Part shown: positions 17,423-34,297 of the stretch, piece after piece
How the letters are laid out: each line of letters starts with the position of its first letter
Numbering within the stretch: the stretch's first letter is position 1
Assembly (NCBI RefSeq): GCF_007859765.1
Contig: NZ_SIHJ01000001.1
Location: 3,079,156 to 3,143,155, forward strand
Source: Posidoniimonas corsicana
Lineage (GTDB): Bacteria; Planctomycetota; Planctomycetia; Pirellulales; Lacipirellulaceae
Length of the DNA stretch: 64,000 nt
Direction of reading: 5' to 3'
Translations under genes and position numbers: made by a program
Notes under the pieces: generated by a model
Seen by the model: only the letters and a program-made list of their open reading frames with translations
What the model was told of the DNA's origin: nothing
The model's database searches: none

Positions 17423-17460
17423 GATAACTTGCTCGGGCAAACAAGTAGGGCGATAGCCGT

Positions 17461-17637: not shown

Positions 17638-18227
17638 GGGTAGCTTCCTCCGGATTCGCGGGCCGACCCTCGAGTCAGACCCTACTTGTTTGTCGGGGGT
17701 TTCAAGGCCCCCGGTGGATGAACCCGCCGTCAGCGCCGCGGCCGGTTGGCCCCGGTGAGCTCGCCAAGTGCTGACGGCAAAGCCCTAAAAAATAACAGTC
17801 CTGCGTAGTCACCCTGCGTGAGGCGTTTCCTTACTACAACCACCCGGTTCTCGGTAGGTTGCAACTTCCATCGGTAGCTAGGCTGCCAGCAGCGGTAAGC
17901 GGCTGGCCCTTGGCTTTGCGTCCCGGCCTCGCGGCCGGTTTGCCCTTCTCATGGACGAAGACGCTGGCAAGCTCTCGATCGGTGGGACGTTCGCCGGAAA
18001 CCGGCTCACGTTTGAAAGGTAGGTCAGAAAAGCGGTGGGAAAAGGTTTTGTCAGCGGTTTGCGGCTTGCTGTCCGCGTCGTTTTCCTCTGACACTTGAAA
18101 CCTATGTCACTTTCTTCAGGAGTCAAACGAACCGAACAAAAAATCTTCCCACGCGTGAATCCCCCGCGTTTCGGCCTACCTTTCCGCAGGAAACCTGCCC
18201 CGACCGAAGCCCCAGGGCTCACGCAGT
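17638..18227. other. 590-bp intergenic region upstream of the Tad run
   Basis: It must contain the promoter of the minus-strand pilin, but I cannot fix hexamers with confidence. An 86-codon minus-strand frame from GTG 18094 to 17834 has no ribosome site and no recognisable domain, and is competed by frames on the other strand, so I leave it unannotated. Confidence 0.4.
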
Positions 18228-19103
18228 ATGAAGTGGACGGACCAATTAATAGACTGCGTCGCGGCCGCGACCCCGGGCGGCTACCTGCCTGCCGGGCCGC
18301 CAGCCACCGAGCCAATAGCGTGGGCGGCCGTGTCGCTCGCCGCGGCCGGCAGGCCCGGCGCGGCCCGCCGGGCCGCCGACTGGCTGGCCAACGCGCAACA
18401 GAGGGATGGCGCCGTCGGAGTCACCGCCGACCAGTCCACCCCCGCCTGGCCCACCAGCCTGTCGATCCTGGCCTGGCTCGCCGCGCAGCAAGCCGACGGC
18501 GCCCACTCCTACCAGGACAACATCCAACGCGCCGTCGACTGGGCCCTGGAGGCCAAGGGCCGCACAGCGCCACGCAAGCCCCAGATCGGCCACGACACGA
18601 TGCTGGTCGGATGGTCGTGGGCGGCGGACACACACTCCTGGCTCGAGCCCACGGCGATGTTCGTCAAAGCGCTGCGACAAGCCGGCTACGCCGACCACCC
18701 CCGCGTTCGCGAAGGGGTGCGTCTGCTAACCGACAGGCTGCTCCCCTCCGGCGGCGCGAACTACGGCAACACGATGGTGCTGGGCCAGGAGCTGCTGGCC
18801 CACGCGCAGCCAACTGGCATCGTGCTGTGGGCGCTGGCCGGCGAAGCCATCGAAGACGCCCGCCTGCCCCAGGCAATCGACTACCTGTCTAACAGCCTGA
18901 CCGCCCAGACAACCACCGCGTCGCTCGCTTACGCGGTGCTGGGGCTAACCGTGCAGAACGCCAGACCAGCCGAGGCCGATAGCTGGCTCGAAGAGGCCTT
19001 CGACCGGCAGTCGGCCGACCGGCCCAGCCTGTACAAGCTGGCGCTGCTCGCCGCCGCCCTACCCTCGCCCGCCCCCACGCCGCTCGCGTCCGCCAGCTCC
19101 TAG
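18228..19103 (+). CDS. Prenyltransferase/squalene-cyclase-like alpha-alpha toroid protein
   Basis: 291 residues made of repeated helix pairs: AADWLANAQQRDGAVGV, TSLSILAWLAAQQ, DNIQRAVDWALEAKG, HSWLEPTAMFVKALRQAG, VREGVRLLTDRLLPSGG and TGIVLWALAGE. The W-L...Q..DGG-type spacing is that of prenyltransferase/squalene-oxidase repeats. The family's acidic cyclase motif (DxDD) is absent, and the length is less than half of a hopene cyclase, so enzymatic activity is doubtful. There is no signal peptide. It ends 11 bases before the DUF362 gene, so the two are likely cotranscribed. Confidence 0.6.
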   Translation: MKWTDQLIDCVAAATPGGYLPAGPPATEPIAWAAVSLAAAGRPGAARRAADWLANAQQRDGAVGVTADQSTPAWPTSLSILAWLAAQQADGAHSYQDNIQRAVDWALEAKGRTAPRKPQIGHDTMLVGWSWAADTHSWLEPTAMFVKALRQAGYADHPRVREGVRLLTDRLLPSGGANYGNTMVLGQELLAHAQPTGIVLWALAGEAIEDARLPQAIDYLSNSLTAQTTTASLAYAVLGLTVQNARPAEADSWLEEAFDRQSADRPSLYKLALLAAALPSPAPTPLASASS

Positions 19104-19114
19104 ACCCAACCGAT

Positions 19115-20134
19115 ATGAACCCCCACGACAAGACCTTTATCGACCGCCGCTCGCTCCTCGGGCTGGGCGGGTTGGCCGCGGCCGGGCTGGTGGCGATGCC
19201 GGCAGTTGAGCGGCTCCGCAAGTCCCGCTCGCCGGTGTTCGTCGCCAAAGGGCAGTCGTACACGGGCGAGCTGGCTCAGACGATCCGTGACGGGCTGTTG
19301 GCCTGCGATGTGCAGCCCAACTCCTTCCAGGGCAAGCGGGTGCTGCTTAAGCCGAACCTGGTGGAGCCCAGCCGCCGGATCCCGCACATGACCACCCACC
19401 CGGCGATGATCGTCGCCGCGGCCGATGTGTTCCGCGACTGGGGCGCCGAGGTGAGCGTCGGCGAGGCGCCCGGCCACGTCCGCGACACCGAGATGGCGCT
19501 TGCCGAGTCAGGCGTCGGCGAGGCGCTGTCCGACGGCGGCCTCCGATTCGCCGACCTCAACTACGAAGAGGTCGGTTGGCGCCGCAACCGCGGCAAGTAC
19601 AGCGGGCTCAAGGGGATTTATTTGCCGCGGTCCGTGCTGGAAGCCGACGTGGTGGTCTCGATGCCGAAGATGAAGACCCACCACTGGGTCGGGGTCACGT
19701 GCGGGATGAAGAACTTCTACGGCGTCATGCCCGGCATCAAGTACGGCTGGCCCAAGAACGTGCTGCACCACAACGGCATCCCCCAAACGGTCGCGGACAT
19801 CAACGCCACGCTGCCCCGCACCATGACCATCGTCGACGGCGTCGATTGCATGGAGGGCGACGGGCCGATCCTCGGCAGCGTCAAGCACATGGGCCTGGTG
19901 GTGGTCGGCGCCAACCTGCCGGCCGTCGACGCCACGGTTGCGCGGATCATGGGGCTCGACCCGACTAAGATCGAGTACCTGCGGCTCGCGTCCCACCACC
20001 TCGGCACGATCGACGACGCCTACCTCGACCAACGCGGCGAGGCCTGGCAGGACGTCCGCAGCCCGTTCCACATCCTAGACGAGGCCCACCTGCAGAAGCT
20101 GCGGGCCACGCCCGATGGCGAGCTGGTGTCTTAG
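19115..20134 (+). CDS. DUF362 protein with a twin-arginine signal
   Basis: 339 residues. The N-terminus IDRRSLLGLGGLAAAGLVAMP is a twin-arginine signal, so a folded, possibly cofactor-bearing protein is exported. The DUF362 core shows VLLKPNLVEP, GEAPGHVRDTEMAL, VSMPKMKTHHWVGVTCGMKN and LPAVDATVARIMGLDP. Some DUF362 proteins carry a ferredoxin domain, but there is no 4Fe-4S cysteine array here. The function of the family is unsettled. It is cotranscribed with the toroid protein upstream. Confidence 0.85.
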   Translation: MNPHDKTFIDRRSLLGLGGLAAAGLVAMPAVERLRKSRSPVFVAKGQSYTGELAQTIRDGLLACDVQPNSFQGKRVLLKPNLVEPSRRIPHMTTHPAMIVAAADVFRDWGAEVSVGEAPGHVRDTEMALAESGVGEALSDGGLRFADLNYEEVGWRRNRGKYSGLKGIYLPRSVLEADVVVSMPKMKTHHWVGVTCGMKNFYGVMPGIKYGWPKNVLHHNGIPQTVADINATLPRTMTIVDGVDCMEGDGPILGSVKHMGLVVVGANLPAVDATVARIMGLDPTKIEYLRLASHHLGTIDDAYLDQRGEAWQDVRSPFHILDEAHLQKLRATPDGELVS

Positions 20135-23969: not shown

Positions 23970-24042
23970 GGGGGATTAGCTCAGTTGGGAGAGCGTTTGG
24001 CTGGCAGCCAAAAGGTCAGCGGTTCGAGCCCGCTATCCTCCA
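23970..24042 (+). tRNA. tRNA-Ala (anticodon GGC)
   Basis: A complete 73-base cloverleaf. The acceptor stem is fully paired over seven positions, including the G3:U70 wobble pair that marks tRNA-Ala. The D arm has AGCTCAGTTGGGAGAGC, the anticodon arm TTTGG/CCAAA has the loop CTGGCAG (anticodon GGC), and the T arm is AGCGG-TTCGAGC-CCGCT. Discriminator A73 is followed by CTC, so CCA is added after transcription. Its 3' part is the left attachment site of the integrated element; the tRNA remains intact. Confidence 0.97.
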
Positions 24043-24045
24043 CTC
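23999..24045. repeat. attL: left attachment site (47-bp direct repeat)
   Basis: Bases 23999-24045 (anticodon arm to three bases past the tRNA end) are identical to 34251-34297. They differ on both sides of the match (T versus C before it, G versus C after it). This is the expected product of site-specific integration into a tRNA 3' end. Confidence 0.95.
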
Positions 24046-24121
24046 GCCGTAACCTCTTTGGCGTGTGCAACATAGCACAACCGGCATTCTTCGCCGAGCA
24101 GCCTGCAAGCTACCGAAACCG

Positions 24122-24369
24122 GGGTAATCGTACCCTAGAAAGGTCGCCCGCATGGCTCGCCCCACCCGCGTCCCCGCGTATTGCCTCCACAAACCTAGTG
24201 GTCGGGCGGTCGTGAAAGTCAAAGGTAGGTCTTTCTACCTGGGCCCGCACGGTTCCCCTGAGAGCCGCGAAGCGTACGCACGCGTCATCGCGGACATCGT
24301 TTCCGGCCGACCCGTCCAAGCGCCACAACCGGCAAATCCCGGCGCCAAAACCGGGGTAGAGATTACCCC
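24122..24369. promoter_or_regulatory. GGGTA/TACCC inverted repeats near the left end (possible integrase arm sites)
   Basis: GGGTA-ATCG-TACCC at 24122-24135 and GGGGTA-GAGAT-TACCCC at 24353-24369, the latter inside the integrase gene. Related repeats occur near the right end (34101-34128). Short repeats at both ends are where integrase arm-binding or excisionase sites lie in known tRNA-integrating elements. The role is inferred. Confidence 0.4.
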
Positions 24370-25318
24370 GACCGTGGGCGAGGTGGCGACCAAGTTCCAG
24401 GCCCACGCCAACCGCTACTACGTCAAGAACGGCAAGCCGACCAGCGAGCCCGCCGCCGTCCGCTGCGCCCTGCGGTTCCTCGTCGCCAACCACGGCGGCC
24501 TGCCCGCGCCCGAGTTCGGCATCGGGGACCTTAAAGTCGTCAGGGAGGCGATGGTTGCGGCGGGGCACTGCCGTTCCAGCGTGAACAAGAACATCCGCCG
24601 CATCCGGCTGGCGTTCACGTGGGCCGCGACTGAGGAGCTCATCCCCGCCACGGTCCCCCAGGCACTATCGCTGCTGCCCGGGTTGAAGGTCGGCAGGACC
24701 GAGGCCCGCGAGTCCGACCCGGTGCTGCCGGTCGACCCCGAGGTGGTCGAAAAGACCATCCAGCACACCAACCCGGTCGTCGCCGATATGGTGCGCCTGC
24801 AGTTGCTCACCGGGATGAGGCCGGACGAGGTTTGCAGCATGCGCCCGGGCGACATCGACCGCGGCGGCGAGGTCTGGGAATACCGCCCCGCCAGCCACAA
24901 GACCCAACATCATGGTCGTCGTCGTGTGGTGTACATCGGGCCGGCTGGCCAACGGATTCTAAGCGCGTACCTTCTGCGTCCGGCGGACGAGTTCTGCTTC
25001 CGCCCCAAGCGCCATGTCGCCGTGCCCAAGGCCAAGAAGCGATACCGCATCGACTCATACCGACAGGCGGTCGAGCGAGCCTGTGACCGTGCGTTCCCCG
25101 CCCCCGACGACTTGAGCGATGACGAGTTGAAGGCGCACCGCAAGCAGCACCGCTGGACCCCCAACCGACTGCGCCACACGGCCGCCACCCTCGTCCGCAA
25201 GCAGTTTGGGCTCGAAGCCAGCCAAGTCATCCTGGGGCACAGCAAGGCCGATGTAACCCAGGTTTACGCCGAGCGAGACGCCAGCAAGGGCATCGAGGTG
25301 GCGCGGGCCATCGGATAA
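24152..25318 (+). CDS. Tyrosine recombinase / integrase of the element
   Basis: 388 residues. It has an N-terminal arm-binding-like domain (VKVKGRSFYLGPHGSPESRE), a core-binding helical domain (~70-180) and a catalytic domain. Catalytic residues visible are R223 (LTGMRPDEV), K250 (SHKTQHH), N338-x-x-R341 (TPNRLRHTAAT, N in place of the usual H), H363 (LGHSKADVT) and the nucleophile Y372 (QVYAERD). AAAGG about eight bases before the ATG is a ribosome site. It starts 107 bases from attL, as expected for an element that targets the adjacent tRNA-Ala. Confidence 0.95.
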   Translation: MARPTRVPAYCLHKPSGRAVVKVKGRSFYLGPHGSPESREAYARVIADIVSGRPVQAPQPANPGAKTGVEITPTVGEVATKFQAHANRYYVKNGKPTSEPAAVRCALRFLVANHGGLPAPEFGIGDLKVVREAMVAAGHCRSSVNKNIRRIRLAFTWAATEELIPATVPQALSLLPGLKVGRTEARESDPVLPVDPEVVEKTIQHTNPVVADMVRLQLLTGMRPDEVCSMRPGDIDRGGEVWEYRPASHKTQHHGRRRVVYIGPAGQRILSAYLLRPADEFCFRPKRHVAVPKAKKRYRIDSYRQAVERACDRAFPAPDDLSDDELKAHRKQHRWTPNRLRHTAATLVRKQFGLEASQVILGHSKADVTQVYAERDASKGIEVARAIG

Positions 25319-25429
25319 ACTCAACACAACCTTGCCGGGTTGCGGAGTAGCTACCGCGAGACCGGCCGGCGCGGCGCGAGCACCTACGCGCGGCGCCGGT
25401 CGGTCAGCCCGGCTCAACTGATAGGTGCG

Positions 25430-26056
25430 ATGATGGGGAAGAAAAAAGCCGCGGTGCGCGAGGCTCTGCTGCCCAGCGAGGCAAGCGAGTCATTCATTGC
25501 GATTACTTCGTGGAAGGAACACCCGGTTGTGTCGCCAGACCTGCTGCGGGAATGGTTGACCGAGTGTATCGAGACCTTTGAAGCTGTCGCGACCGACATT
25601 CACGGCCGCATGGATGAGCTGGCCAATGGTGATGAGGCAGACCGCCTCCAGGCCTACCACGTCATGACCGGCGCCCTGGATTTCCTGGACCGCGCTGAAG
25701 TGGCTTGGCGTGACGTGCAAGACGACCGCTCCGCTGAGGTACACGCCGCGTTTACCGAGGGGGTGCGTCTGGGGCTCATCTATGAACGGCTGTCATCACT
25801 TGCGAACAAGCGGTTCAGAGACAAATGGGTTCGTGATGAGAACATTGAGCGCTCTACTGAGAAAAAGAGGGCAGAGGCTATTGCCCGGGAGCAAGACGCC
25901 CTAGATGCGGTTGAGTGGGCCAAGAAGGAGTTTCCTCAGCGAGGCCCCGATACGCAGAAACAGAAGGCCGCGGACCACATCGGCATCACCAAGCGGGCGC
26001 TCAATAACCGGTTGAGAGACGCGCGCGAGCGAGCCGAAAACGCGACAGGCGACTGA
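25430..26056 (+). CDS. Element protein with a C-terminal helix-turn-helix-like segment, function unknown
   Basis: About 208 residues (ATG 25430 or the tandem ATG 25433; the upstream frame starts with TTG and an arginine-rich stretch). It is mostly helical and charged. The last 40 residues, QKQKAADHIGITKRALNNRL, look like a Fis/TrpR-style helix-turn-helix. Its base composition is less GC-rich than flanking chromosomal genes. It lies between the integrase and the structured leader of the DUF1580 gene, so a regulatory role in the element is plausible but unproven. Confidence 0.6.
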   Translation: MMGKKKAAVREALLPSEASESFIAITSWKEHPVVSPDLLREWLTECIETFEAVATDIHGRMDELANGDEADRLQAYHVMTGALDFLDRAEVAWRDVQDDRSAEVHAAFTEGVRLGLIYERLSSLANKRFRDKWVRDENIERSTEKKRAEAIAREQDALDAVEWAKKEFPQRGPDTQKQKAADHIGITKRALNNRLRDARERAENATGD

Positions 26057-26079
26057 TTGCCGCGCCGCGTGCACCTATC

Positions 26080-26145
26080 TTGGGAAGTAGCGGCCGCCAC
26101 TTCCCAAAGTACAGTCTCGTGTGTGTTGTACGTCGGCACGACGTA
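26080..26145. repeat. Two inverted repeats upstream of the DUF1580 gene
   Basis: TTGGGAAGT/ACTTCCCAA (26080-26088, 26099-26107) surrounds a loop that contains GCGGCCGC, and TACGTCG/CGACGTA (26129-26135, 26139-26145) has a three-base loop. Neither has a T-run. Operator sites or RNA structure are both possible. Confidence 0.5.
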
Positions 26146-26148
26146 TCT

Positions 26149-26196
26149 ACCCTTGATTGTGAACGGTAACTAAACCGCCACAAGCAAGGGTTTTTT
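26149..26196 (+). terminator. Terminator/attenuator ending two bases before the DUF1580 start codon
   Basis: A 13-base stem with one mismatch (ACCCTTGATTGTG 26149-26161, CACAAGCAAGGGT 26179-26191) encloses CGGT/ACCG (26164-26167, 26174-26177) and runs straight into TTTTTT (26191-26196). ATG follows at 26198. A terminator abutting a start codon suggests attenuation or antitermination control of the gene after it. Confidence 0.7.
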
Positions 26197-26197
26197 C

Positions 26198-26461
26198 ATG
26201 TCTGCAAACGCAACCGCGACTCTTCGGGAAGACCTTTTCGCCCCCGACCCCGACGACCCGTTCCGCTCTATCGCCGCGGCCGTCGAGGCTGAAACCGGCT
26301 ACCGCCCGCACCCGACCACCGCCTGCCGCTGGCACCGCGTTGGCGTTGGTGGTGTGCGACTTCAGACCGTGACGCTAGGCGCCCGCCCCATGACGACTCG
26401 GCGCGCCGTGCGCGAGTTCATCCGCGCCCGCACCGAGGCCCAGGCGTCGGCTGAGGGCTGA
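26198..26461 (+). CDS. DUF1580 protein (planctomycete HTH-like, possible excisionase/regulator)
   Basis: 87 residues. The core TGYRPHPTTACRWHRVGVGG-VRLQTVTLGARPMTTRRAVREFI matches the DUF1580 pattern: a helix-turn-helix-like part with RPHxTTxxRW, then VRL and a wing ending in RRAVREFI. The family is common in planctomycetes near integrases and resembles excisionase/AlpA DNA-binding proteins. It has no Shine-Dalgarno because the start codon directly follows a terminator-like hairpin and T-run, so translation may be leaderless or depend on regulated read-through. Confidence 0.8.
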   Translation: MSANATATLREDLFAPDPDDPFRSIAAAVEAETGYRPHPTTACRWHRVGVGGVRLQTVTLGARPMTTRRAVREFIRARTEAQASAEG

Positions 26462-26527
26462 GAGTCCGACCCGCCAAGCTGCCGGGCGGTTCTTCGGCGG
26501 CGACCGATTCACCACGAGGGTCGAGCG

Positions 26528-26725
26528 ATGGCCAGCATAACCAGCGAATCACTCAACAAAGAGCTATTGGAGAACAAGGAACTCGTGGCGGAGCTCAAGA
26601 AGTTTCGCCACCGGCAAGCTAAGGACCGCCGACGTAGTCGTTCGCTAGGTCTGGCGGGAGTGAATCCGCTACCGCAGCCCAAGCAACGGAAGAGCCTGCC
26701 GGGGCAACTGCCCCTCTCTGACTAG
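26528..26725 (+). CDS. Small basic protein of the element, function unknown
   Basis: 65 residues. The N-terminal half is a charged helix (LNKELLENKELVAELKKFRHR) and the middle is very basic (RQAKDRRRSRS), so nucleic-acid binding is possible. ACGAGGGTCGAGCG before the ATG contains a usable ribosome site. It sits between DUF1580 and the primase-helicase on the same strand. No family is recognised. Confidence 0.5.
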   Translation: MASITSESLNKELLENKELVAELKKFRHRQAKDRRRSRSLGLAGVNPLPQPKQRKSLPGQLPLSD

Positions 26726-26790
26726 CACAGGAAGGTCCCCGCGCCGGAGCTGACCCGGCGCGGGGCAATGTGCCATGGGAGGGCACAGCG

Positions 26791-29151
26791 ATGGTTAATA
26801 ACAATCTTACCGCAAGCGCAGTCGAGACGCCAATTCTCGGCCCGCCTGATATGGGCGAGTACCGGGTGGAGCTCAAAGAGGCGGTTGCAGAACTCATCGA
26901 CCAGGGGTTCCCGGTCACGGTCTGCAACGGCAAGAGCCCCGGCGACCCTGCAATGGGGAACGGGTGGCAGCACCAGAGACTTGATGCTGATCAGGCTGCC
27001 ACCATCATCGACCGCGTGCCGTTCCCCACGATTGGCGTCATGCAGGGCGCAGCAGGTGGCGCTGTTGACTTCGACATCGACGGCGACGAAGAGCTCGACG
27101 CATTCAATGAACTATTCGACGGCGACCCGCCTGTGCTGCCGACCTACACTTCGGGGCGACAGGGCGGCGAGCACCGGCTTGCTGCGTACGACTCCCGGTT
27201 GAACGCCATCGGGAAGTCGTTTCACACGTTCAAGGCGCCGAGCGGCAAAAGAATCACAGTCCGGTTGGGATGCCCCAAGCTGGACGAGAAGGGGGAATTG
27301 GTTCAGGGCGCGTCACAGTCGATTGTTCCGCCCAGCTATCACGCGCTTGGCAGCGACAAGGATGAAGACCAGGCAAAGAAGGGCCCGCTTCGCTGGAGCG
27401 GCAAGCGGTACGCGTTCAAGCCCGGACTGTCCATCGACGACATCGGACTCCCAATGTTGCCCGACAGCGTCGTCGACAAGCTGGTCGCGGCGGCCAACCC
27501 CGCGCCCGCCAAACCCATCGTCCAAGACCTGACCGACACGGCGGCGCCCACGGACGCCGTCGTCGCCGCGATGCTCCGCTCGACCCGGAACATGCAAGAT
27601 GGCGGCGATGGCTCCAAGAGGCTTGTGGCGGTCTGCTGCCGGCTCGCCGAGTTCAACCTTCGGGACGGTGACGCGGTCGCCGCGGTGCGTGCGTACGAGC
27701 TGCAGAGGCCGTTCCCCCGGCACTACACCGACGCCGACATCCTGGCCCGGCTAAAGTACGCGTACACGCGCCCGGACGTGCAGGTGGGCGCGGCCCTAGT
27801 GCAGCGGCAGGCCCTCACTGACATGGGCAACGCCGTCCGGTTTGTTCAGCGATACGGCGACCGGGTCCGCTACGTCGCCGCGTGGGGCAAGTTCCTCGTC
27901 TGGACCGGCAACCGCTGGACCATGAACGAGACCGGCGAAGTGCAGCGGCTCGCTAAGCAGACCGCCCGTTCGATCTACGCGGAGGCGTCACTTGTTGATG
28001 ACGAAGAAGAGGCCAAGAAGATCAGCAAGCACGCACAGTCATCGCAATCACGCACCAGGCTCGATGCGATGCTCGCTTTGGCCGAGAGTGAGCTCCCCAT
28101 CCCAGTGCGGCACAACTCGCTTGATGCCGACCCCTGGCTCCTCAACTGTGAGAACGGGGTTCTCGACCTGCGCACCGGCGAGCTGCTGCGTCACGATGCC
28201 GGCCACCTGCTAACGAGGACCACCGGCATCGAGTACCCGACCGACGCGGGCGAGGACGCGGTGCTGTGGATGGGGTTTCTTGACCAGATATTCGGCGGCG
28301 ACACAGAGCTCATCCGGTTCCTGCAGCGGATGATGGGCCTGGCGCTCGTCGGTCAACAGGTGGAACACGTGCTGCCCATCTTCTGGGGCGGCGGCGCAAA
28401 CGGCAAATCGGTGTTCATCAACACGGTGCAGAAGGCGATGGGCGACTACGCGATGACCGCGCCGCCCGGCCTGCTGATGACCAAGAGGTCGGACGGCCAC
28501 CCGACCGAGAACGCGGACCTGTTCCGCAAGCGGCTGGTCGTGCTGGCGGAAACCAAGGACGGCCAACGGCTGGACGAGGGGCTCGTTAAGGCGACAACCG
28601 GCGGCGACCGCATCCGGGCGCGGCGTATGCGTGAAGACTTTTGGGAGTTCACCCCCAGTCACACGCCCGTGGTCGTCACGAACCACCGGCCCATGGTCCA
28701 GGGCGACGACTTCGGAATCTGGCGGCGGCTGAGGCTGGTGCCGTTCACAGTCACCATCCCGCCCGACAAGCAGGACCGCCACCTACCCGAGAAGCTGGAG
28801 GCCGAGCTGCCGGCCATCCTGCGGTGGCTCGTCCAGGGCTGCCTGTCGTGGCAGCGGTCCGGCCTGCAGGAGCCCCGTTGCGTCCGGGCCGCCACCGACG
28901 ACTACCGGGCCGACTGCGACAACCTGGCTCGCTGGCTAGACGAGGAGGCGGTCGCGACGGCGAACGCGCAGACGCAATCGTCAGTGCTGCTGAAACGGTA
29001 CCGCGACTGGTGCGACCGCAATGGCGAGACGGCGCTCAGCCATCGTCGGTTTGGTGAGCGCTTGAGTGCAACGTTTGCGAAGGAAAAGCAATCAAGAGGG
29101 ATGTGTTACATCGGAATCGGAATCGCGGCCGCCGATCCTGTGCAGGTTTAA
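26791..29151 (+). CDS. Prim-pol / D5-type primase-helicase (phage P4 alpha-like replication protein)
   Basis: 786 residues. The N-terminal bifunctional primase-polymerase domain has GVMQGAAGGAVDFDIDGDE (catalytic DxD at ~93-95) and GGEHRL. A central D5_N-like domain contains ETGEVQRLAKQTARSIYAEA and LNCENGVLDLRTGEL. The C-terminal SF3 helicase has Walker A FWGGGANGKSVFINTVQKA (~530-545), AETKDGQRLDEGLVKATTGGD and VVVTNHRPMV. GGGAGGG seven bases before ATG 26791 fixes the start. Such proteins start replication of phage satellites and plasmids without host DnaG/DnaB, so the element probably replicates autonomously after excision. Confidence 0.92.
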   Translation: MVNNNLTASAVETPILGPPDMGEYRVELKEAVAELIDQGFPVTVCNGKSPGDPAMGNGWQHQRLDADQAATIIDRVPFPTIGVMQGAAGGAVDFDIDGDEELDAFNELFDGDPPVLPTYTSGRQGGEHRLAAYDSRLNAIGKSFHTFKAPSGKRITVRLGCPKLDEKGELVQGASQSIVPPSYHALGSDKDEDQAKKGPLRWSGKRYAFKPGLSIDDIGLPMLPDSVVDKLVAAANPAPAKPIVQDLTDTAAPTDAVVAAMLRSTRNMQDGGDGSKRLVAVCCRLAEFNLRDGDAVAAVRAYELQRPFPRHYTDADILARLKYAYTRPDVQVGAALVQRQALTDMGNAVRFVQRYGDRVRYVAAWGKFLVWTGNRWTMNETGEVQRLAKQTARSIYAEASLVDDEEEAKKISKHAQSSQSRTRLDAMLALAESELPIPVRHNSLDADPWLLNCENGVLDLRTGELLRHDAGHLLTRTTGIEYPTDAGEDAVLWMGFLDQIFGGDTELIRFLQRMMGLALVGQQVEHVLPIFWGGGANGKSVFINTVQKAMGDYAMTAPPGLLMTKRSDGHPTENADLFRKRLVVLAETKDGQRLDEGLVKATTGGDRIRARRMREDFWEFTPSHTPVVVTNHRPMVQGDDFGIWRRLRLVPFTVTIPPDKQDRHLPEKLEAELPAILRWLVQGCLSWQRSGLQEPRCVRAATDDYRADCDNLARWLDEEAVATANAQTQSSVLLKRYRDWCDRNGETALSHRRFGERLSATFAKEKQSRGMCYIGIGIAAADPVQV

Positions 29152-29267
29152 AGTCCGTTTTTCCCGGGGTTTGCACGTTGTGCAGGTTGGTTCCGGGTTG
29201 TCCCTAGAAAATCACTACGCGTGGCGTTTATGCGGAACCAACATGCACAACATGCACAACATGCATT
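29139..29267. repeat. TGCAC-rich direct and inverted repeats after the primase-helicase
   Basis: TGTGCAGGTT occurs at 29139-29148 and 29179-29188. TGCAC-GTT-GTGCA (29172-29184) is an inverted repeat. ACATGCACA is repeated twice at 29241-29258, followed by a degenerate third unit to 29267. Repeats beside a primase-helicase gene are where P4-like replicons carry iterons; an origin role is inferred. Part of the array lies within a small coding frame. Confidence 0.5.
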
Positions 29268-29463
29268 CTCGGGTGGCCCGCGCCGCCGCAAATTGACCGG
29301 CGACGAGCTGCTCGTCGCTGCCGGCCGGATGCGGCATCCGGACCTTGCCCGCCTGCTAATCGAGTGGGAAGAGGCGGAGCTCGGCTCCGCGCCCAAGCCC
29401 GTCACGGCCGCCGTGTTGACGACGGGCCCACTCGTCCGCGCCACACAAACGGAGCTCTTCTGA
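29230..29463 (+). CDS. Small element protein, function unknown
   Basis: 77 residues from ATG 29230 (a GTG at 29221 would add three). The first residues read MRNQHAQHAQHAF because the frame runs through the ACATGCACA repeats. The rest includes LTGDELLVAAGRMRHPDLARLL, probably helical. Its stop overlaps the next start (TGATG), which supports translation of both. No family is recognised. Confidence 0.5.
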   Translation: MRNQHAQHAQHAFSGGPRRRKLTGDELLVAAGRMRHPDLARLLIEWEEAELGSAPKPVTAAVLTTGPLVRATQTELF

Positions 29464-29675
29464 TGGCCACCACGGACACCAGGGTGCACACCTGCTACTC
29501 CGCTAAGAATCCGTTTTGGCGCCGCACGGCCGAGCGACTCCGCGACCGGGGCGGAGCTCACAAGCCGAGCACCGTGGCTGATGACCCGGCTGTCCTGAGG
29601 ACCGAGGTCATCGTCTCGATGGCCCGCGAGACTGCCGAGCTGCACGCCGCACCGTACCCGCCGGCTGAGTTCTAA
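29463..29675 (+). CDS. Small element protein, function unknown
   Basis: 70 residues starting at the ATG that overlaps the previous stop (TGATG). Its content is basic at the start (AKNPFWRRTAERLRDRGGAH) and then helical (RTEVIVSMARETAELH). There are no motifs I recognise. Coupled translation with the upstream frame is the best evidence that both are real. Confidence 0.5.
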   Translation: MATTDTRVHTCYSAKNPFWRRTAERLRDRGGAHKPSTVADDPAVLRTEVIVSMARETAELHAAPYPPAEF

Positions 29676-29773
29676 TACCCTGCTTTCCAACCCCCCGAGT
29701 TTTGACAACGAGTGCACGGCGCTCACCCCGCGGTCTTCACCCGAGTTGCTCCAAAGGCAGCCTGCCCCCCCCC

Positions 29774-30109
29774 ATGGCCCAAGCACCACAGAAGCGATGC
29801 CCCCGATGCCGGCGGCTGCACCGCGACGCCTGCCCGACATGCAAACCCAAGCGGCACCAGCAGCACGACGCCAACCGCCCGAGCGCCTACCAGCGTGGCT
29901 ACGGCAGGGCGTGGCAGCGGGCCAGCAAGGCCCACCTGGAGGAGAACCCGCTATGCGTGGAATGCGAGAAACGGGGCCGTATCACCGCGGCGACGTGCGT
30001 TGACCACAGCATCCCGCACCGCGGCGACATGGAGTTGTTTTGGCGGCAGGAGCTGTGGCAGTCGATGTGCGCTGCCTGCCACTCACGGAAGACGGCGCAA
30101 GGGCTGTGA
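29774..30109 (+). CDS. HNH endonuclease, phage type
   Basis: 111 residues. An N-terminal zinc knuckle (RCPRCRRLHRDACPTCK) and YGRAWQRASKAHLEENPLCV lead into the HNH core: CVECEKRGR, CVDHSIPHRGD and LWQSMCAACHSRKT. The metal-binding cysteines and the DH pair are present; the central N is not obvious. In many cos-type phages a small HNH protein is encoded beside the terminase genes and is needed for DNA cutting during packaging; here the small terminase follows 118 bases later. An upstream frame start at 29702 lacks support. Confidence 0.88.
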   Translation: MAQAPQKRCPRCRRLHRDACPTCKPKRHQQHDANRPSAYQRGYGRAWQRASKAHLEENPLCVECEKRGRITAATCVDHSIPHRGDMELFWRQELWQSMCAACHSRKTAQGL

Positions 30110-30227
30110 CCCCCACCCCCCGTGGGGTCGGTTCCAAGAGTTGCCGGATGAAGACCGATTGCGTGGTCGCGTGAATTTTTTGGCTAGTTTTGGCTTTTAC
30201 CACTTCATTAAAAGTTGAGGTTTCGTC

Positions 30228-30539
30228 ATGGAAGACCAGCAGTATCCGCCCCCGCCGCACCTGAGCCCCCGTGCGGTCGCCCTGTGGCATGAGTACGTCC
30301 CGGAGAAGGCCAGAAGCGCCGGGCGGCTCGCCCTGGTGCAGACGGCCCTAGAGAGCCTGGACCGCGCCGACGCCGCACGCGCCGAAGTCGAAGCGGCGGG
30401 CATGACGACCACCACCAAGAGCACGGGCGCCGTTCACGTGCACCCGCTGATCAAGGTCGAGCGTGAGGGCAGGCAGATGTTCGCGAAGTTGTGGGGGGAA
30501 CTCGGATTCCACTGGACGAACGGGGTGGACCGCCGATGA
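30228..30539 (+). CDS. Phage terminase small subunit, P27-like
   Basis: 103 residues: PPPHLSPRAVALWHEYVPE, then TALESLDRADAARAEVEAAG and HPLIKVEREGRQMFAKLWGELGF. This is the P27 family pattern (HLs..a...W, long central helix, HP.....E....L....LGL). Small terminases recognise packaging sites and load the large subunit. No large subunit gene follows, so if active it would have to work with a helper phage's enzyme. ATG 30228 follows TTGAGG, a weak ribosome site. Its stop overlaps the next start. Confidence 0.85.
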   Translation: MEDQQYPPPPHLSPRAVALWHEYVPEKARSAGRLALVQTALESLDRADAARAEVEAAGMTTTTKSTGAVHVHPLIKVEREGRQMFAKLWGELGFHWTNGVDRR

Positions 30540-30748
30540 ACGCCCACGAGTGCACGGCCTGCGGCGGGCGTGCCAAGTACACGCACCGGCGGAAGGTGGG
30601 GAGCCTGATCCAGCGGCGACGGCTGTGCGTCGACTGCGGGCACGTCGACAAGGTGCTCGTGCAGCCCGAGCAGATCCTATCGGTCCAACCAGTTGTGTGC
30701 AGACGCACATCACAGCCAACAACAATCGCAAGTGATGGGGATAATTAG
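30536..30748 (+). CDS. Small zinc-ribbon-like protein of the element
   Basis: 70 residues. A CTACGG...CVDCGH pair (four cysteines, 26 residues apart) forms a zinc ribbon, with basic residues between (KYTHRRKVGSLIQRRRL). The ATG overlaps the small-terminase stop (ATGA), which supports coupled translation. The C-terminal 20 residues look unstructured. Possible DNA- or RNA-binding protein; no family assigned. Confidence 0.6.
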   Translation: MNAHECTACGGRAKYTHRRKVGSLIQRRRLCVDCGHVDKVLVQPEQILSVQPVVCRRTSQPTTIASDGDN

Positions 30749-30752
30749 CAGC

Positions 30753-31121
30753 ATGAACAAGCTTAGCGAGATGGACGGCGTGATTCTCTACGACGCGCTG
30801 GACCTGGCGGACATCCTCGACGCGCGGGCCAGTGAGGTGCGCGGGCGGCTGCAAAGCGATCCGCAGTCGCTTCCGCTGCCGATTGTGTTCAGCGGCGTCG
30901 GGCTCGTTCGCTGGCCGCATCAGCAGATCGCGGCGTGGGTCAAGGCGGGATGCCCCCGCGACTACCGCCATGCCGCGACCGAGTTTGTGCCCAGATCTAT
31001 ATCGCAGTTTCACAACGCGGCGGCGCTCGCTACTGCCGACCCGACTTCACCAGTTGCCGACCTGCGAGCGGTCGCGGCTTTGCTGGACGGCGAGCCCGCC
31101 GTCACCTACCCAAAGGATTGA
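30753..31121 (+). CDS. AlpA/excisionase-like DNA-binding protein
   Basis: 122 residues from ATG 30753 (ATG 30735 is an alternative; the longest frame uses TTG 30693 inside the previous gene). The N-terminal half reads LYDALDLADILDARASEVRGRL, then GVGLVRWPHQQIAAWVKAGCP, which follows the AlpA/MerR-type winged helix: 'a.dlAelL.vs...v', then 'vRW....I.aW...G.P'. The recognition helix differs from typical AlpA proteins. Such proteins regulate integrase or excision in P4-like satellites. Four bases separate it from the capsid gene. Confidence 0.6.
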   Translation: MNKLSEMDGVILYDALDLADILDARASEVRGRLQSDPQSLPLPIVFSGVGLVRWPHQQIAAWVKAGCPRDYRHAATEFVPRSISQFHNAAALATADPTSPVADLRAVAALLDGEPAVTYPKD

Positions 31122-31124
31122 TTC

Positions 31125-32486
31125 ATGGTGGACTTCACGAAGAAGAACGCACGCGACCTGGAAGCCGAGCGGCTGGCCCTGATCGACGAGGCCGACGGCA
31201 TCGCCCGGCTGCGTGAGGGCAAGAACGCCCGCGACCTGAACGACCAGGAGCAGGCCCGGTTCGACGAGCTGACGTCGGACGGCGGATTGATTGACCAGAA
31301 GGCCGAAGAGGTGGACGTGCAGCACCGCATCGAGAAGAACCGCGACGCCCAGCGGGCGGCCAAGCTTGGCGCCTACAGCGGCAAGGTAGGCGGCCCGTAC
31401 ACGGGCGACCAGCGGCGGCACCGCGTGGTTGAGCCCAACAACGGCGGCATTGACCCGCAGCTGGCCCGGCTGGCCGGCGGCTACTTCACCGCAATCGCCG
31501 CTGCCGCAGTGGGCGACTACGACAAGGCGGACGCCGCCCGCGGCAGCCTGGTTCAGTGGGGCGCGTCCGAGTTCGCCACGATGACCGAGGGCACCCCGTC
31601 CGCGGGTGGCTACATCGTGCCGACGCCGATTGCGTCCGAGATCGAGCGGCGCCGCGACGAGGTGGGCGTTACGTCGAAGGTGGCCCGCACGTTCTCGATG
31701 ACCAGCGAGTCGCTGACCATCCCCGCGGAGTCCGGCCGGCCGACCACCTACATCGTGGGCGAGGGCAACAGCATCACCGCGTCGGACGCCGCGCTGCAGA
31801 CGCACATGCTGACGGTCAAGAAGCGGGCCAGCTTCCTGCGCTCGTCGCCCGAGTTCCTGGCCGACGCCGCTGGTGATGCCGGCGCGTGGATCGTCGACGC
31901 GATGGCGTACAGCGCCGCCGAGCAGATGGACAGCGAGCTAGTCAACGGCGACGGCACCAGCACCTATGGCGGCATCACGGGCCTAGTAGGCGGCATCGGC
32001 TCCGCCGCCGTGAAAGATGCCGACTCGGGCGAGACCAGCCTCGGGTTGCTCGACGTGGAGGACTGGACCGGCACCATCGCACTGATGCCGCCCAAGTACC
32101 TGGACGACGCCGCGTGGGTCATGCCGCGGGCGACGTGGAACAACTCGTGTTTGCCGCTGATGGCCAACTCGGGCGGGGCCGGGTTCGCCAGCCTCATGGC
32201 CGGCGCGCCGGGCACCGCGGTGAACTGGTTCGGCTACCCCGTGCACTTCACCGAGCAGATGCCGACGGCGGCCGTGAGCACGTTCGTCGCGTTCCTGGTG
32301 AGCAAGCGGCACGGCGTCTACCTGGGCGACCGCGGCGACATGCGGGTTGCGGTCACGGACCTGGAGCAGTTCCAGAACGACCTGGTGTCGTTCAAGGTGA
32401 CGCACCGCTACGACTTGCTGCTGCCCGAGCCGGGCAACGCCGATGACGCGGGCTCCTATGTGGGGCTCAAGCTTGCCGCCAGCTAA
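31125..32486 (+). CDS. HK97-type major capsid protein
   Basis: 453 residues. The N-terminal ~80 residues are a charged coiled segment (KKNARDLEAERLALIDEADG...) like the HK97 delta/scaffold domain. The capsid fold begins near EGTPSAGGYIVPTPIASEI, continues VARTFSMTSESLTIPAESG, with LTVKKRASFLRSSPEFLADA and WVMPRATWNN later, and ends YDLLLPEPGNADDAGSYVGL. AAAGGA before the ATG is a ribosome site. No protease or portal gene is adjacent, which is unusual for an HK97 head module and supports a satellite, or a decayed prophage. Confidence 0.92.
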   Translation: MVDFTKKNARDLEAERLALIDEADGIARLREGKNARDLNDQEQARFDELTSDGGLIDQKAEEVDVQHRIEKNRDAQRAAKLGAYSGKVGGPYTGDQRRHRVVEPNNGGIDPQLARLAGGYFTAIAAAAVGDYDKADAARGSLVQWGASEFATMTEGTPSAGGYIVPTPIASEIERRRDEVGVTSKVARTFSMTSESLTIPAESGRPTTYIVGEGNSITASDAALQTHMLTVKKRASFLRSSPEFLADAAGDAGAWIVDAMAYSAAEQMDSELVNGDGTSTYGGITGLVGGIGSAAVKDADSGETSLGLLDVEDWTGTIALMPPKYLDDAAWVMPRATWNNSCLPLMANSGGAGFASLMAGAPGTAVNWFGYPVHFTEQMPTAAVSTFVAFLVSKRHGVYLGDRGDMRVAVTDLEQFQNDLVSFKVTHRYDLLLPEPGNADDAGSYVGLKLAAS

Positions 32487-32576
32487 GAAACGTCTAGCGT
32501 GCGGCGTCGGCGGTGGGAATCTCCGAGCCCTCCGTCGGCGCTGCTGCTTTTTTGAAACCGGGGGGACCGATGGCGC

Positions 32577-32792
32577 GTGACGCACGACAAGTCGAAGCCT
32601 GGATCGGAAACGGACGAGTACGGGCAGCCCATACCCAAGGGCGAGCCAACGCCCAGCGAGATACGGGCGGCAGCCGCCGCAATCAGAAAGCGGTGGGTGG
32701 AAAAGGTGGAGCGGGAGCGGCCGACGCAGCCGCCGCAGGAGTGGGAACCAGTAACAATCGAGTTCGTCGCGGTACCCCCTGACGACGAATAG
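32577..32792 (+). CDS. Small hydrophilic protein, function unknown
   Basis: 71 residues from GTG 32577. The text DEYGQPIPKGEPTPSEIRAA and AIRKRWVEKVERERP resembles short hydrophilic proteins that I have seen often in planctomycete genomes, typically in variable regions. GGGGGGAC upstream may serve as ribosome site. A competing frame from ATG 32570 is arginine/glycine-rich and unlikely. The end is convergent with the kinase-like gene, 20 bases away. Confidence 0.55.
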   Translation: MTHDKSKPGSETDEYGQPIPKGEPTPSEIRAAAAAIRKRWVEKVERERPTQPPQEWEPVTIEFVAVPPDDE

Positions 32793-32812
32793 TTCCGCGT
32801 GTGGGGGGGGCG

Positions 32813-33313
32813 CTAATCAAGTCCGTCCGTGTTGATATTCGACGGGCGCGGGTCGATGTAGTAGATCCCGTGGCGCTCTAGCTCGTAGACCACCGAAGCA
32901 ACCTCTTCCCAATGGGAATCAAACCGCTCCCGCCATTCGTCGTACGCGTTCTTGCGTAGCTGTGGGTCACGCCAGTAGAACGGCGGAGCGTCAAGATACA
33001 CTTTCCCGAAATCGAGAACATAAGGTGGCTCGACAATCTCCATCTCCACAATCTGGAGACTATCATCAGAATCAATGAGCCTCGGCACCGCAAAGCGGCC
33101 GATTGAGCTAATATCCGCTTCGGCAAGCCGTTCGTAAGAAGCCCGCTCTACATAGTAGTTTTCGTACCGGTGGACGGCCTTGACGGCGGAGTTTGACGTC
33201 ACCCAGACCGTTCCGTCAGTGCCATATCCTAGTTTTTTGTTCTGCGTTACCCTAAGCTGCCTTGCGTCGGCGTACTGCCGCACTCGGTCGAACAACTCGG
33301 AATCGTCAACCAT
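32813..33313 (-). CDS. Minimal protein-kinase-like protein (element cargo)
   Basis: 166 residues. A glycine-rich loop LGYGTDGTVW is followed by a candidate ATP-binding lysine (SAVKAVHRYE), an alpha-C-like YVERASYERL and, near the C-terminus, GIYYIDPRPSNIN, which resembles a kinase catalytic loop (D....N). The protein stops about seven residues later, so no DFG segment or C-lobe is present. It is the only minus-strand gene in the element and its base composition is AT-richer. Its position at the right end fits a cargo gene, possibly for phage exclusion or defence. Start ATG overlaps the divergent gene's ATG (CATG). Confidence 0.6.
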   Translation of the reverse strand: MVDDSELFDRVRQYADARQLRVTQNKKLGYGTDGTVWVTSNSAVKAVHRYENYYVERASYERLAEADISSIGRFAVPRLIDSDDSLQIVEMEIVEPPYVLDFGKVYLDAPPFYWRDPQLRKNAYDEWRERFDSHWEEVASVVYELERHGIYYIDPRPSNINTDGLD

Positions 33314-33545
33314 GTCTACAACCAGTCGCTATTCGGCCGAGGTGGCTTTGAGACTTATCGTTGGCGATAGGACCTTGAGCCTCTCGCACCTTGGCCCAGA
33401 CGGGTTTGTAGTCCGCGGACCATGCGAGCCCATCGAGTCGTGTAACGCAACGATAGAAGTTGTTGTCGACGGACGCAAAAAGACAAAGCGGGTTTTTCTG
33501 CCTCATGGTGTGCAAGCGCCCGGCGTTCGTGTGATGTATCTCTAG
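33312..33545 (+). CDS. Small beta-rich protein divergent to the kinase-like gene
   Basis: 77 residues from ATG 33312, starting MSTTSRYSAEVALRLIVGDR. Alternating hydrophobic stretches (FVVRGPCEPI, CNATIEVVVDG, KTKRVFLPHG) suggest a small beta barrel, somewhat like PilZ, but without RxxxR/DxSxxG motifs. The start codon overlaps that of the kinase-like gene on the other strand, so any promoter of each gene must lie inside the other. The two may form a module. The function is unknown. Confidence 0.5.
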   Translation: MSTTSRYSAEVALRLIVGDRTLSLSHLGPDGFVVRGPCEPIESCNATIEVVVDGRKKTKRVFLPHGVQAPGVRVMYL

Positions 33546-33710
33546 CACGAGGCGGCTACACCAGCCACGATTCTCGCGAAACCACGCTAGTGTGGTTGCT
33601 TCTTGTGCCTCCGCTGCCAATAATCGCCCCCGGTTTGGACGGGGCCCACACCAGCATCTTGGTGTTCACCGCGCTCGCCCCGTCGCGTCACTGGTCCCGA
33701 GGTGGTGCGC

Positions 33711-34094
33711 ATGGTCGCGTTCAACGTCCCGGTGTTCGGCGGTCAGCGTATGCCGTCGCTGGCGATGCCCCTTCTCTACGCGGCCCACGACGACCTGAAG
33801 CGCGGGCACGAGATAGCCGCCGCCGCCAAGGTCAGGGTGGCGCTGTGCCGGTACCTGACCGCCCTGTGCGAGTTGCACAACTGCCTGCCCCGTCGCCGGC
33901 ACACCGCCAGCCGCCTGATGAGGGCACTACAGCGCGCCGGTTGCGATGGCTGCTTTGAGTACCTCGAAGAGATAATCGAGAGCTGTGACGCCGTCCTGCG
34001 TTGCGAGAAGCCGGGGTGCTCCATCAAGGCGTGTGTTGAAATTGCGGCCGACCTGATCGACACCAGGATTGATGAGCGTGATGGCGACCCATAG
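33711..34094 (+). CDS. Helical element protein, function unknown
   Basis: 127 residues from ATG 33711 (GTG 33702 is possible). It has helices such as ALCRYLTALCELHNCLPRRR and YLEEIIESCDAVLRCEKPGC, with eight cysteines in the protein, several in C-x4-C-like spacings. There is no membrane segment or known motif. It is the last gene before the right end of the element. Confidence 0.5.
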   Translation: MVAFNVPVFGGQRMPSLAMPLLYAAHDDLKRGHEIAAAAKVRVALCRYLTALCELHNCLPRRRHTASRLMRALQRAGCDGCFEYLEEIIESCDAVLRCEKPGCSIKACVEIAADLIDTRIDERDGDP

Positions 34095-34100
34095 CGCCGC

Positions 34101-34128
34101 CCAGGGTAAATTCCAGGGTACGTTACCC
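34101..34128. promoter_or_regulatory. GGGTA repeats near the right end (possible integrase/Xis sites)
   Basis: CCAGGGTA is repeated at 34101-34108 and 34113-34120, and GGGTA-CGT-TACCC forms an inverted repeat (34116-34128). These match the GGGTA/TACCC repeats beside the left end. They lie about 120-150 bases inside attR, a usual distance for arm-type sites. The role is inferred. Confidence 0.4.
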
Positions 34129-34250
34129 CCGAACGATAGCTAAGGCGTGCGAATCCCCGAGAACTCTTGCACACTCGGTACCCCGCCTCTAAGATTAGCT
34201 AGCGTTGTTAACCATTCACGCTTGTTGGCTTTGCTTAGCGTTGGGGTAGC

Positions 34251-34297
34251 GGCTGGCAGCCAAAAGGTCAGCGGTTCGAGCCCGCTATCCTCCACTC
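34251..34297. repeat. attR: right attachment site (47-bp direct repeat)
   Basis: Exact second copy of 23999-24045, the 3' part of tRNA-Ala from the anticodon arm on. The 5' half of the tRNA is missing, so this is not a second tRNA gene. Confidence 0.95.

Follow-up and report, generated by a model that had tools for sequence, protein, structure and literature searches.

We identified, within a 64,000-nt stretch of the Posidoniimonas corsicana genome (hereafter the window), an integrated element that we consider, with a probability of about 0.78, to be a PICI-like phage satellite that depends on a helper; the dependence is something that we infer from sequence. The element is inserted at a tRNA-Ala gene (Table 1), and our repeat search together with ARAGORN bore out the preliminary description's account of its ends as an exact 47-nt direct repeat of the tRNA 3' part with a spacing of 10,252 bp; identity is 49/50 over 50 nt, and the repeat ranked first among the 55 direct-repeat families of the 15-kb region (20 of the 55 being listed). 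The tyrosine integrase described beside attL was confirmed there. An integrase with a specific att site is a feature by which PICIs are recognized, as are a length of about 10–20 kb, the absence of lysis genes and a scarcity or lack of structural ones, and all of these were found here; the only called genes of at least 230 aa are those for the integrase, primase and capsid. A related element occupies the same tRNA-Ala in G021, a genome from another genus of the same family.

Table 1. Features of the satellite-like element, in window coordinates
Feature	Position	Strand	Evidence
tRNA-Ala (ggc), integration target	23970..24043	+	ARAGORN; orthologous-site comparison finds this site empty in the congener G001
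attL core, 47 nt, tRNA 3' part	23999..24045	+	exact repeat; 46 nt identical flank the G021 element on both sides
Tyrosine integrase	24152..25318	+	PF00589 2e-12, phrog_1
ORF after integrase	25430..26056	+	gene caller; no Pfam (E up to 1) or PADLOC family; PHROG matches only above E 0.02
DUF1580 protein	26198..26461	+	PF07618 1.5e-14; 39% identical over 67 aa to the same-place G021 protein
Small ORF	26528..26725	+	gene caller
PrimPol-D5 primase-helicase	26794..29151	+	PF09250, PF08706, PF19263, phrog_1156
Inverted repeat (24-nt arms, 92%) and 9-bp repeats directly after primase gene; candidate replication origin	29172..29256	.	repeat search
Two small ORFs	29293-29463 and 29463-29675	+	gene caller
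HNH endonuclease	29774..30109	+	phrog_2323 8e-28
P27-type terminase small subunit (TerS)	30228..30539	+	Terminase_4 2.4e-4, phrog_83; aligned with 14 relatives
Zinc-ribbon protein, start overlapping TerS stop	30536..30748	+	Pfam/PHROG; L013 protein
HTH/AlpA-like protein immediately before capsid (weak assignment)	30753..31121	+	32% over 84 aa to L211 HTH protein
HK97-fold major capsid protein, full-length helical N-terminal part	31125..32486	+	PF05065 2e-34; profile matches; model and fold search
Small ORF	32577..32792	+	gene caller
Small kinase-like protein	32813..33313	-	PADLOC ST_Kinase 1.6e-24
ORF, no family given	33711..34094	+	gene caller
attR core	34251..34297	+	exact 47-nt repeat of attL core

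The PrimPol-D5, HNH and HK97 capsid genes recognized earlier were all recovered with Pfam and PHROG profiles (e.g., Prim-Pol 4.5e-8 and D5_N 1e-37 for the primase-helicase, whose start is uncertain between 26770, 26794 and 26851), the HNH protein scoring 19.2 bits in Pfam, under the cut-off of 21.4. The P27-type TerS was weak by its own profile match (21.9 bits for Terminase_4, whose cut-off is 24.7, and 6e-5 for phrog_83) and is secured by its relatives, being 65% identical over 93 aa in G021. The earlier gene list did not contain the DUF1580 protein, the zinc-ribbon and HTH-like proteins between TerS and the capsid, or the minus-strand kinase-like gene; this last product and that of the ORF nearest attR are probably cargo. 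The zinc-ribbon protein has a counterpart in locus L013 that precedes a capsid gene (30% identity over 64 aa, E 8e-9). The HTH/AlpA-like protein by itself had no Pfam or PHROG match, and its L211 counterpart also precedes a capsid gene (1e-4). PICIs are further marked by an AlpA/MerR-type regulator; possible candidates here are the DUF1580 protein at the early position, presumably a small DNA-binding excision or regulatory protein, and the HTH-like protein with its weak similarity to L211. They are also marked by a primase and origin; here the PrimPol-D5 gene is followed by repeats that are a weak candidate for a replication origin. An origin motif that by eye seemed common to the window and G021 found no support, as 111 of 500 shuffles scored equally well and the similarity of the gap is thus not significant; in a loose scan across all loci it turned up at 43 places, scattered over 2.24 million bases.

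The preliminary description had recognized no large terminase, portal, protease, tail, lysis or conjugation gene, and our scans of the element's proteins (15 by Pfam, 16 by PHROGs) likewise matched none of these families. It had also suggested that sensitive profiles might uncover a hidden terL or portal gene; none was found with the Pfam and PHROG profiles, and no called gene of suitable size remained. The TerL, portal, tail and lysis genes expected of a prophage are accordingly not seen in the element, and a 9-row profile of the terminase-extension protein found no match in its six frames at E-values up to 10. Neither PF03354, PF03237 nor PF04860 matched anything in the genome that holds the window, an assembly of 13 contigs that is about 95% complete, so by these models there is no resident helper; PF03354 is present in 5 of the 43 genomes of the family.

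Comparison with the G021 element revealed a difference in conservation along the two. In addition to TerS, the integrases (66% identical over 371 aa) and the C-terminal 437 aa of the D5 proteins (49%) are related, whereas the capsids have no BLASTP match to each other, the G021 protein being a PF05065 capsid in its own right (1.2e-27). The G021 capsid gene is split by a contig end, its element lying on two contigs (about 9.8 kb if these abut), and the protein forms a long branch of unsure position in our tree. These sequences suggest that at one tRNA-Ala site the capsid has been replaced rather than lost.

Profile searches with the window capsid matched gene transfer agent (GTA) and HK97 capsids, and the protein aligns with that of phage L051 from residue 7 to 453. 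A single-protein query of IMG/VR confirmed no close capsid relatives, and the best INPHARED matches had 23–28% identity. In a tree of 78 capsids, thinned from 117 of at least 300 aa and built by a quick method with SH-aLRT support only, the window capsid grouped with those of phages L051 and L052 (SH-aLRT 100). Nineteen rows were called satellite as no TerL, portal, protease or tail label stood on the stretch seen, at least one element end not being located for 11 of them. Four of the rows counted as phage (L036, L037, L042 and L119) are short stretches on which the capsid is the only head gene to be seen. With these labels the satellite state has to change at least 6 times on the tree, where shuffled labels average 17.2, each change being a possible gain or loss. 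The window TerS has no BLASTP match in L052, a contig that extends over the gene preceding TerL; TerS and capsid thus seem to derive from separate lineages of phages. L051 begins inside TerL and is uninformative on TerS. In another phage contig, L132, a TerS close to those of satellites stands beside TerL and portal.

The capsid of such a satellite could act on the helper instead of forming a shell of its own, either by co-assembly that shrinks or poisons heads, or it could be dispensable; we regard this as rather unlikely. There are precedents for both forms: the HK97-like Ccm of SaPIbov5 redirects phi12 heads and makes no capsids by itself (PMC5052747, PMC6893505), and the capsid and decoration genes of EcCICFT073 were deletable without effect on transfer. 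The window element, moreover, supplies neither portal nor protease. However, the Ccm delta domain is 44 residues shorter than the helper's, and we saw no such shortening in satellite capsids, where the part before the capsid core is not shorter than in phages (median 161, values 141–192, in 18 satellites versus 151.5 in 54 phages; Mann-Whitney p 0.02). The match to L051 over nearly the whole window capsid also speaks against a helper-directed role, as does the gene that follows the capsid in several satellites, which matches no family and resembles one for a decoration protein solely in where it lies and how it looks.

The preliminary description had offered a deletion derivative of an ordinary prophage as its alternative, one that kept integrase, primase, TerS and capsid by chance. 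TerS, HNH and capsid do belong to phages, tailed phages have the capsids nearest to this one, and P. corsicana itself has a 98-aa capsid-like ORF near another integrase-D5 region that looks decayed. We nevertheless judge this alternative to be very unlikely, based on a similar reduced gene set in all eight elements for which we located both ends (8.1–10.3 kb, G021 being counted across its two contigs), which occupy tRNA genes for five amino acids and differ in their replication genes, and on the capsid replacement at one site. Besides the window and G021 these are six elements of 8.1–9.6 kb in planctomycetes, viral contigs and one gammaproteobacterial MAG: L016 (9,614 bp), L049 (8,810 bp), L133 (8,114 bp), L139 (9,609 bp), L205 (9,511 bp) and L252 (8,877 bp). 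All six have a capsid, an integrase and varied replication genes (assigned partly from scans of chosen proteins only), five have a recognized TerS, and their called genes of at least 230 aa encode integrase, replication proteins and capsid only, leaving no unassigned gene big enough for TerL or portal. Among the families listed for 68 further proteins from these six and G021 (25 of 55 PHROGs, 25 of 33 Pfam families), none was for TerL, portal, protease or tail. For the relatives we called genes with a codon-based caller of our own making and labelled head genes by home-made iterated HMMs, in which "portal" and "protease" are sometimes swapped, so that these labels denote the presence or absence of a head gene only; the profiles were seeded with G000, G012 and G022 (and G038 for the capsid), whose matches arise by construction. 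None of the relatives found has the same element with a head-tail-lysis module; what they have, at this tRNA site and at others, is a small gene complement similar to that of the window element, and the satellite reading of the preliminary description gains support from this and from the missing TerL and portal. One further locus, L043, was attributed to Candidatus Microthrix, which we doubt because its integrase shares 42–45% identity with the integrases of L013 and L015, both planctomycete loci; it is possibly a misplaced contig.

A self-sufficient or GTA-like capsid element, or a capsid domesticated by the host, is highly improbable: the profile-nearest solved structures are GTA capsids, but these are themselves HK97-family proteins, autonomous packaging is not expected because no motor or portal was found, and the mobile boundaries and the empty site in the congener speak against domestication.

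P4-like satellites and capsid-forming PICIs (cf-PICIs) had been named for comparison, and a correction is needed here: they are not the nearest analogues, P4 having no capsid gene and cf-PICIs a whole head set. P4-like satellites, with their Sid/Psu-type capsid redirection genes, are small and integrated like the window element but have no capsid gene; here a capsid gene is present and no Psu-type Pfam match was found. VEIMEs and tycheposons are marine virion-borne or tRNA-borne islands. PICMIs are also small integrated satellites, with integrase, AlpA and primase, but lack packaging or capsid-remodelling genes, sit at fis and encode Fis, whereas the window element is at tRNA-Ala with a capsid and has no Fis match. 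MulchRoom and MiniFlayer, satellites of Streptomyces phages, have their own capsid gene, as here, but add TerL, TerS, portal and scaffold to it and show no obvious replicase. The cf-PICIs share with the window element a satellite-encoded HK97 capsid, HNH and TerS, but also encode TerL, portal, protease and connectors (PMC10690885), which neither profiles nor gene size revealed here; the window element is not a cf-PICI as defined. The IMG/VR contigs with related D5 proteins, L020 (TerL, portal, capsid), L021 (TerL) and L025 (portal, capsid), look more like cf-PICIs.

In gene content, the closest analogues are SaPIbov5 and Gram-negative PICIs that likewise have a capsid gene on its own. Among the latter, such genes have been described in EcCICFT073 and PmCI172, PICIs of 10–20 kb with int, an AlpA-type regulator, primase and mostly unidirectional genes, PmCI172 yielding small heads (PMC6092414, PMC10111431). 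The window element likewise has int, primase, a size within that range, genes that mostly run in one direction and a capsid homolog with the rest of the head set missing; it differs in its early DUF1580 gene, in the HTH-like gene adjoining the capsid, in having HNH and TerS, the latter absent from EcCICFT073, and in its planctomycete host, the lone-capsid PICIs of that study being only from Enterobacteriaceae and Pasteurellaceae. SaPIbov5 is also a satellite with an HK97-fold capsid homolog, Ccm being incorporated into small heads made with the helper; it differs in requiring the helper capsid protein alongside its shortened Ccm, the window capsid having a full-length N-terminal part, and in carrying the helper cos site where the window element encodes its own TerS.

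Under the helper-dependent reading, growth of a tailed phage in the cell would lead the element to excise and to replicate via its own PrimPol-D5. TerS, with HNH, would then pick the element's own cos- or pac-like site and pass the DNA to the helper TerL; the element's capsid protein, with helper portal and protease, would build or co-build a head for about 10 kb, and a helper tail would finish the particle. As helpers change, the capsid gene may be swapped in from phages because its product has to work with a portal and a protease that are foreign to the element. The lone capsid gene of EcCICFT073 is dispensable for transfer, and the role of the capsid here may be minor.

We tentatively propose, as a possibility somewhat short of an even chance, that planctomycetes harbor a large and hitherto undescribed family of satellites with an exchangeable head-gene slot, keeping their own TerS and taking head genes that fit the current helper, many with a TerL-extension-related protein that would re-aim the helper motor together with TerS. 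This gained weight because the protein that takes the place of the capsid in L245 is a head maturation protease, present alone; L200 has portal and protease as head genes, and L204 no recognized head gene besides TerS. The free-standing protein of L133 is related (6e-17) to the N-terminal extension of the helper-type TerL of phage contig L132. On this view the window element would be the variant with a capsid, and a switch of helper would have left its mark in the replacement of the capsid at this att site.

The PICI satellites described so far are mainly from Firmicutes and Gammaproteobacteria, and a planctomycete family would extend them to Planctomycetota. Satellites of planctomycetes appear, as had been supposed, little described, with no paper pairing "planctomycet" and "phage satellite" in the literature searched; the lone-capsid kind is known, but within that literature a family from planctomycetes whose capsid was replaced at one site seems not to have been described. 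Related satellites at one tRNA site whose capsids have no mutual BLASTP match provide a natural experiment, making it testable why satellites without portal, protease and motor keep a gene for the capsid, and whether this gene changes along with the helper.

The sole tRNA gene of the window, a tRNA-Ala(ggc) called by ARAGORN, has its 3' part repeated exactly over 47 nt at a spacing of 10,252 bp. The interval between the two copies opens with a tyrosine integrase, an unknown protein and a DUF1580 protein, and continues with a small ORF, the PrimPol-D5 primase-helicase and two more small ORFs. Next come an HNH protein, the terminase small subunit (TerS), a zinc-ribbon protein, an HTH-like protein and an HK97 capsid protein; a small ORF, a kinase-like gene on the minus strand and a final ORF complete the series. 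The TerS stop and zinc ribbon start overlap as ATGA. The direct repeat and the integrase, prim-pol/D5, HNH, TerS and capsid genes named in the preliminary description were all located. Its statement that TerL (terminase large subunit), portal, protease, tail, lysis and conjugation genes are not recognisable also held: no gene for any of these functions, or for a connector, turned up when 15 proteins of the element were scanned against Pfam and 16 against PHROGs. Among the called genes only those for the primase, capsid and integrase exceed 300 aa, so none remains for a normal TerL or portal. Searches of the host genome with the Pfam models PF03354, PF03237 and PF04860 matched neither a TerL nor a portal, so a helper would come from outside. 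We retain the reading of a probable PICI-like satellite that depends on a helper and encodes its own TerS and capsid, at a probability of 0.78; it is not a capsid-forming PICI (cf-PICI) as these are defined in PMC10690885. Its capsid protein may, with about equal likelihood, build a small head of its own or a mixed one.

Features and their coordinates in the window, its genome and related loci
Feature	Sequence	Position	Strand
Satellite-like element	window	23999-34297	
tRNA-Ala(ggc)	window	23970-24043	
Inverted repeat and 9-bp repeats	window	29172-29256	
Kinase-like gene	window	32813-33313	-
D5-primase region with integrase	L018 (own genome)	15386-19901	
D5-primase region	L019 (own genome)	8749-11121	
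98-aa capsid-like ORF	G000:C1 (own genome)	647400-647627	opposite
TerL with N-terminal extension	L132 (phage contig)	10322-12406	
Free-standing protein after TerS	L133	4659-4997	
Satellite-like element with TerS, portal and head maturation protease	L200 (G055)	9981-13420	
Element with TerS and head maturation protease	L245 (G025)	15107-17718	
119-129 aa protein	L208	10712-11083	
119-129 aa protein	L252	8233-8592	
119-129 aa protein	L247	6683-7072	

Satellites with a lone capsid gene are already known from the PICI and Ccm papers; a capsid gene is reported in 21 of 29 reference PICIs (PMC10111431), in the Gram-negative PICIs EcCICFT073 and PmCI172 (PMC6092414) and, as the homologue Ccm, in SaPIbov5 (PMC5052747, PMC6893505). 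Papers on PICMI satellites (PMC10803314) and small tailed phages (PMC7762592), a review (PMC11389934) and a further paper (PMC12324425) were cited alongside, and the searched literature, which takes in few subscription papers, yielded no report of planctomycete phage satellites; the results of a looser search were judged by title and the opening of the abstract.

The preliminary description proposed to seek the same gene order at tRNA-Ala in relatives; the site is empty in one and holds a related element in another. In the congener G001 the orthologous tRNA-Ala has no element and is flanked by the same LPG-synthase-type gene and MFS symporter. In G021, from another genus of the family, the integrase after tRNA-Ala is 66% identical to that of the window, the DUF1580 homologue 39% and TerS 65%, and the D5 protein, whose called gene is just 457 aa, shows 49% identity across the C-terminal 437 residues. 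Past TerS, the first G021 contig continues with an HTH protein and ends in the start of a capsid gene; the second starts with the rest of a capsid gene, followed by HNH, a SIR2-like gene, 46 nt of the tRNA-Ala repeat and then the MFS symporter, which would give an element of ~9.8 kb as the sum of two pieces if the contigs abut. The G021 capsid, a PF05065 protein, had no BLASTP match to the window capsid at E 1e-3, so the elements share a backbone but have capsids that differ beyond the reach of BLASTP, and replacement of the capsid gene at tRNA-Ala is the natural reading of these comparisons. The cargo position held in G021 by the SIR2-like and HNH genes is occupied in the window by the kinase-like gene, which matches a PADLOC model described beside type I-C systems in Rhodopirellula. 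Directly 3' of the window primase gene, an inverted repeat with TGCACA-type 9-bp repeats is a candidate origin; its similarity to the corresponding G021 gap was no better than chance.

Among 80 IMG/VR capsid relatives, 75 have another head or tail label on the same stretch and five (L108, L115, L117, L119 and L125) have none. We placed 78 capsids on a tree by a quick maximum-likelihood method (19 satellite rows, i.e., without a visible TerL, portal, protease or tail label on their stretch; support by SH-aLRT). The satellite label needs at least six changes on it, against a shuffled mean of 17.2, with 0 of 500 shuffles that low. The window capsid groups with the phages L051 and L052 (SH-aLRT 100), and the G021 capsid, on a long branch and unsurely placed, sits in a group of satellite capsids from other genomes (support 90). 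Satellites show no shortening ahead of the capsid core, with a median length of 161 for 18 of their capsids and of 151.5 for 54 phage capsids. In this part the window capsid was modelled with three helices (9-31, 40-50 and 55-84; whole-model mean pLDDT just 69), and profile and Foldseek searches led to gene-transfer-agent and HK97 capsids, with modest TM-scores for HK97. Based on these results the satellite seems to retain the full capsid protein, including the part before the core that a protease removes in HK97-type phages (PMC5052747/PMC6893505), and no protease was found in the window element. In L208, L252 and L247, elements whose capsids cluster on the tree, proteins of 119-129 aa, alike by eye only, precede the capsid or an HTH-capsid pair and are perhaps capsid partners.

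At E 1e-10 the window capsid had matches in 6 of 147 genomes, one of them its own; in G032 and G143, two of the remaining five, the capsid lies on tailed-phage-like stretches. Order-wide profiles from four capsid and three TerS rows matched 29 and 27 of 396 genomes, respectively, profile sources included; among the matches listed, a capsid place lay within 5 kb of TerS on the same contig at 7 of 35 TerS places. Six further elements with both att ends span 8,114-9,614 bp: L016 (tRNA-Ser; DnaB-like protein and primase), L049 (tRNA-Ser, in a gammaproteobacterial MAG; PrimPol), L139 (tRNA-Ser; DUF3631), these three with repeats of only 15-18 nt, and L133 (tRNA-Leu; AAA_25), L205 (tRNA-Glu; DnaC-like) and L252 (tRNA-Ile; DnaB-like). 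Their called genes of at least 230 aa are integrase, replication and capsid only, and TerS was recognised in all but L252. L043, from an actinobacterial bin (Candidatus Microthrix), also has an element with a capsid gene, preceded by a zinc ribbon and an HTH; the integrase of this element shares 42-45% identity with those of planctomycetes, so this contig may be misbinned.

The 92.9-kb phage contig L132, with the order TerS-TerL-portal-capsid, has a TerS that aligns closely with those of satellites (67% identity to that of L016) and a TerL with an N-terminal extension of ~200 residues ahead of the ATPase domain. In the satellite-like L133, a free-standing protein directly after TerS is 37% identical to residues 1-116 of this extension (E 6e-17), and proteins that resemble it and carry the motif RP-x-x-[WY]-W (RP-WW) follow TerS in L013, L016, L139, L205, L199 and L200; a profile of them found more members adjoining TerS in other loci, and no match in the window element. 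None of seven (L013, L016, L133, L138, L139, L205 and L200) matched PHROGs and neither of two (L016 and L205) matched Pfam. The L133 match to the TerL extension and the place of these proteins after TerS suggest an adaptor to the helper's TerL, and possibly a terminase adaptor family.

Neighbouring forms carry other head genes. L200, a satellite-like element at tRNA-Asn, encodes TerS and an RP-WW protein together with two head proteins, a portal (phrog_12, 5e-109) and a maturation protease (phrog_80, 2.5e-31), and has no recognised capsid or TerL; its repeats lie 15.1 kb apart and, as a second integrase sits just past the right one, there are perhaps two elements in tandem. In L245, with its integrase by tRNA-Arg, the capsid position is taken by a head maturation protease (phrog_2976, 2e-30); TerS, an RP-WW protein and a zinc ribbon are also present. 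The window's own genome has two further D5-primase regions, with a capsid-like ORF nearby. The D5 search also yielded L020, L021 and L025, which have TerL and/or portal and look like capsid-forming PICIs. Across these loci the satellites seem to form a continuum of head-gene subsets.
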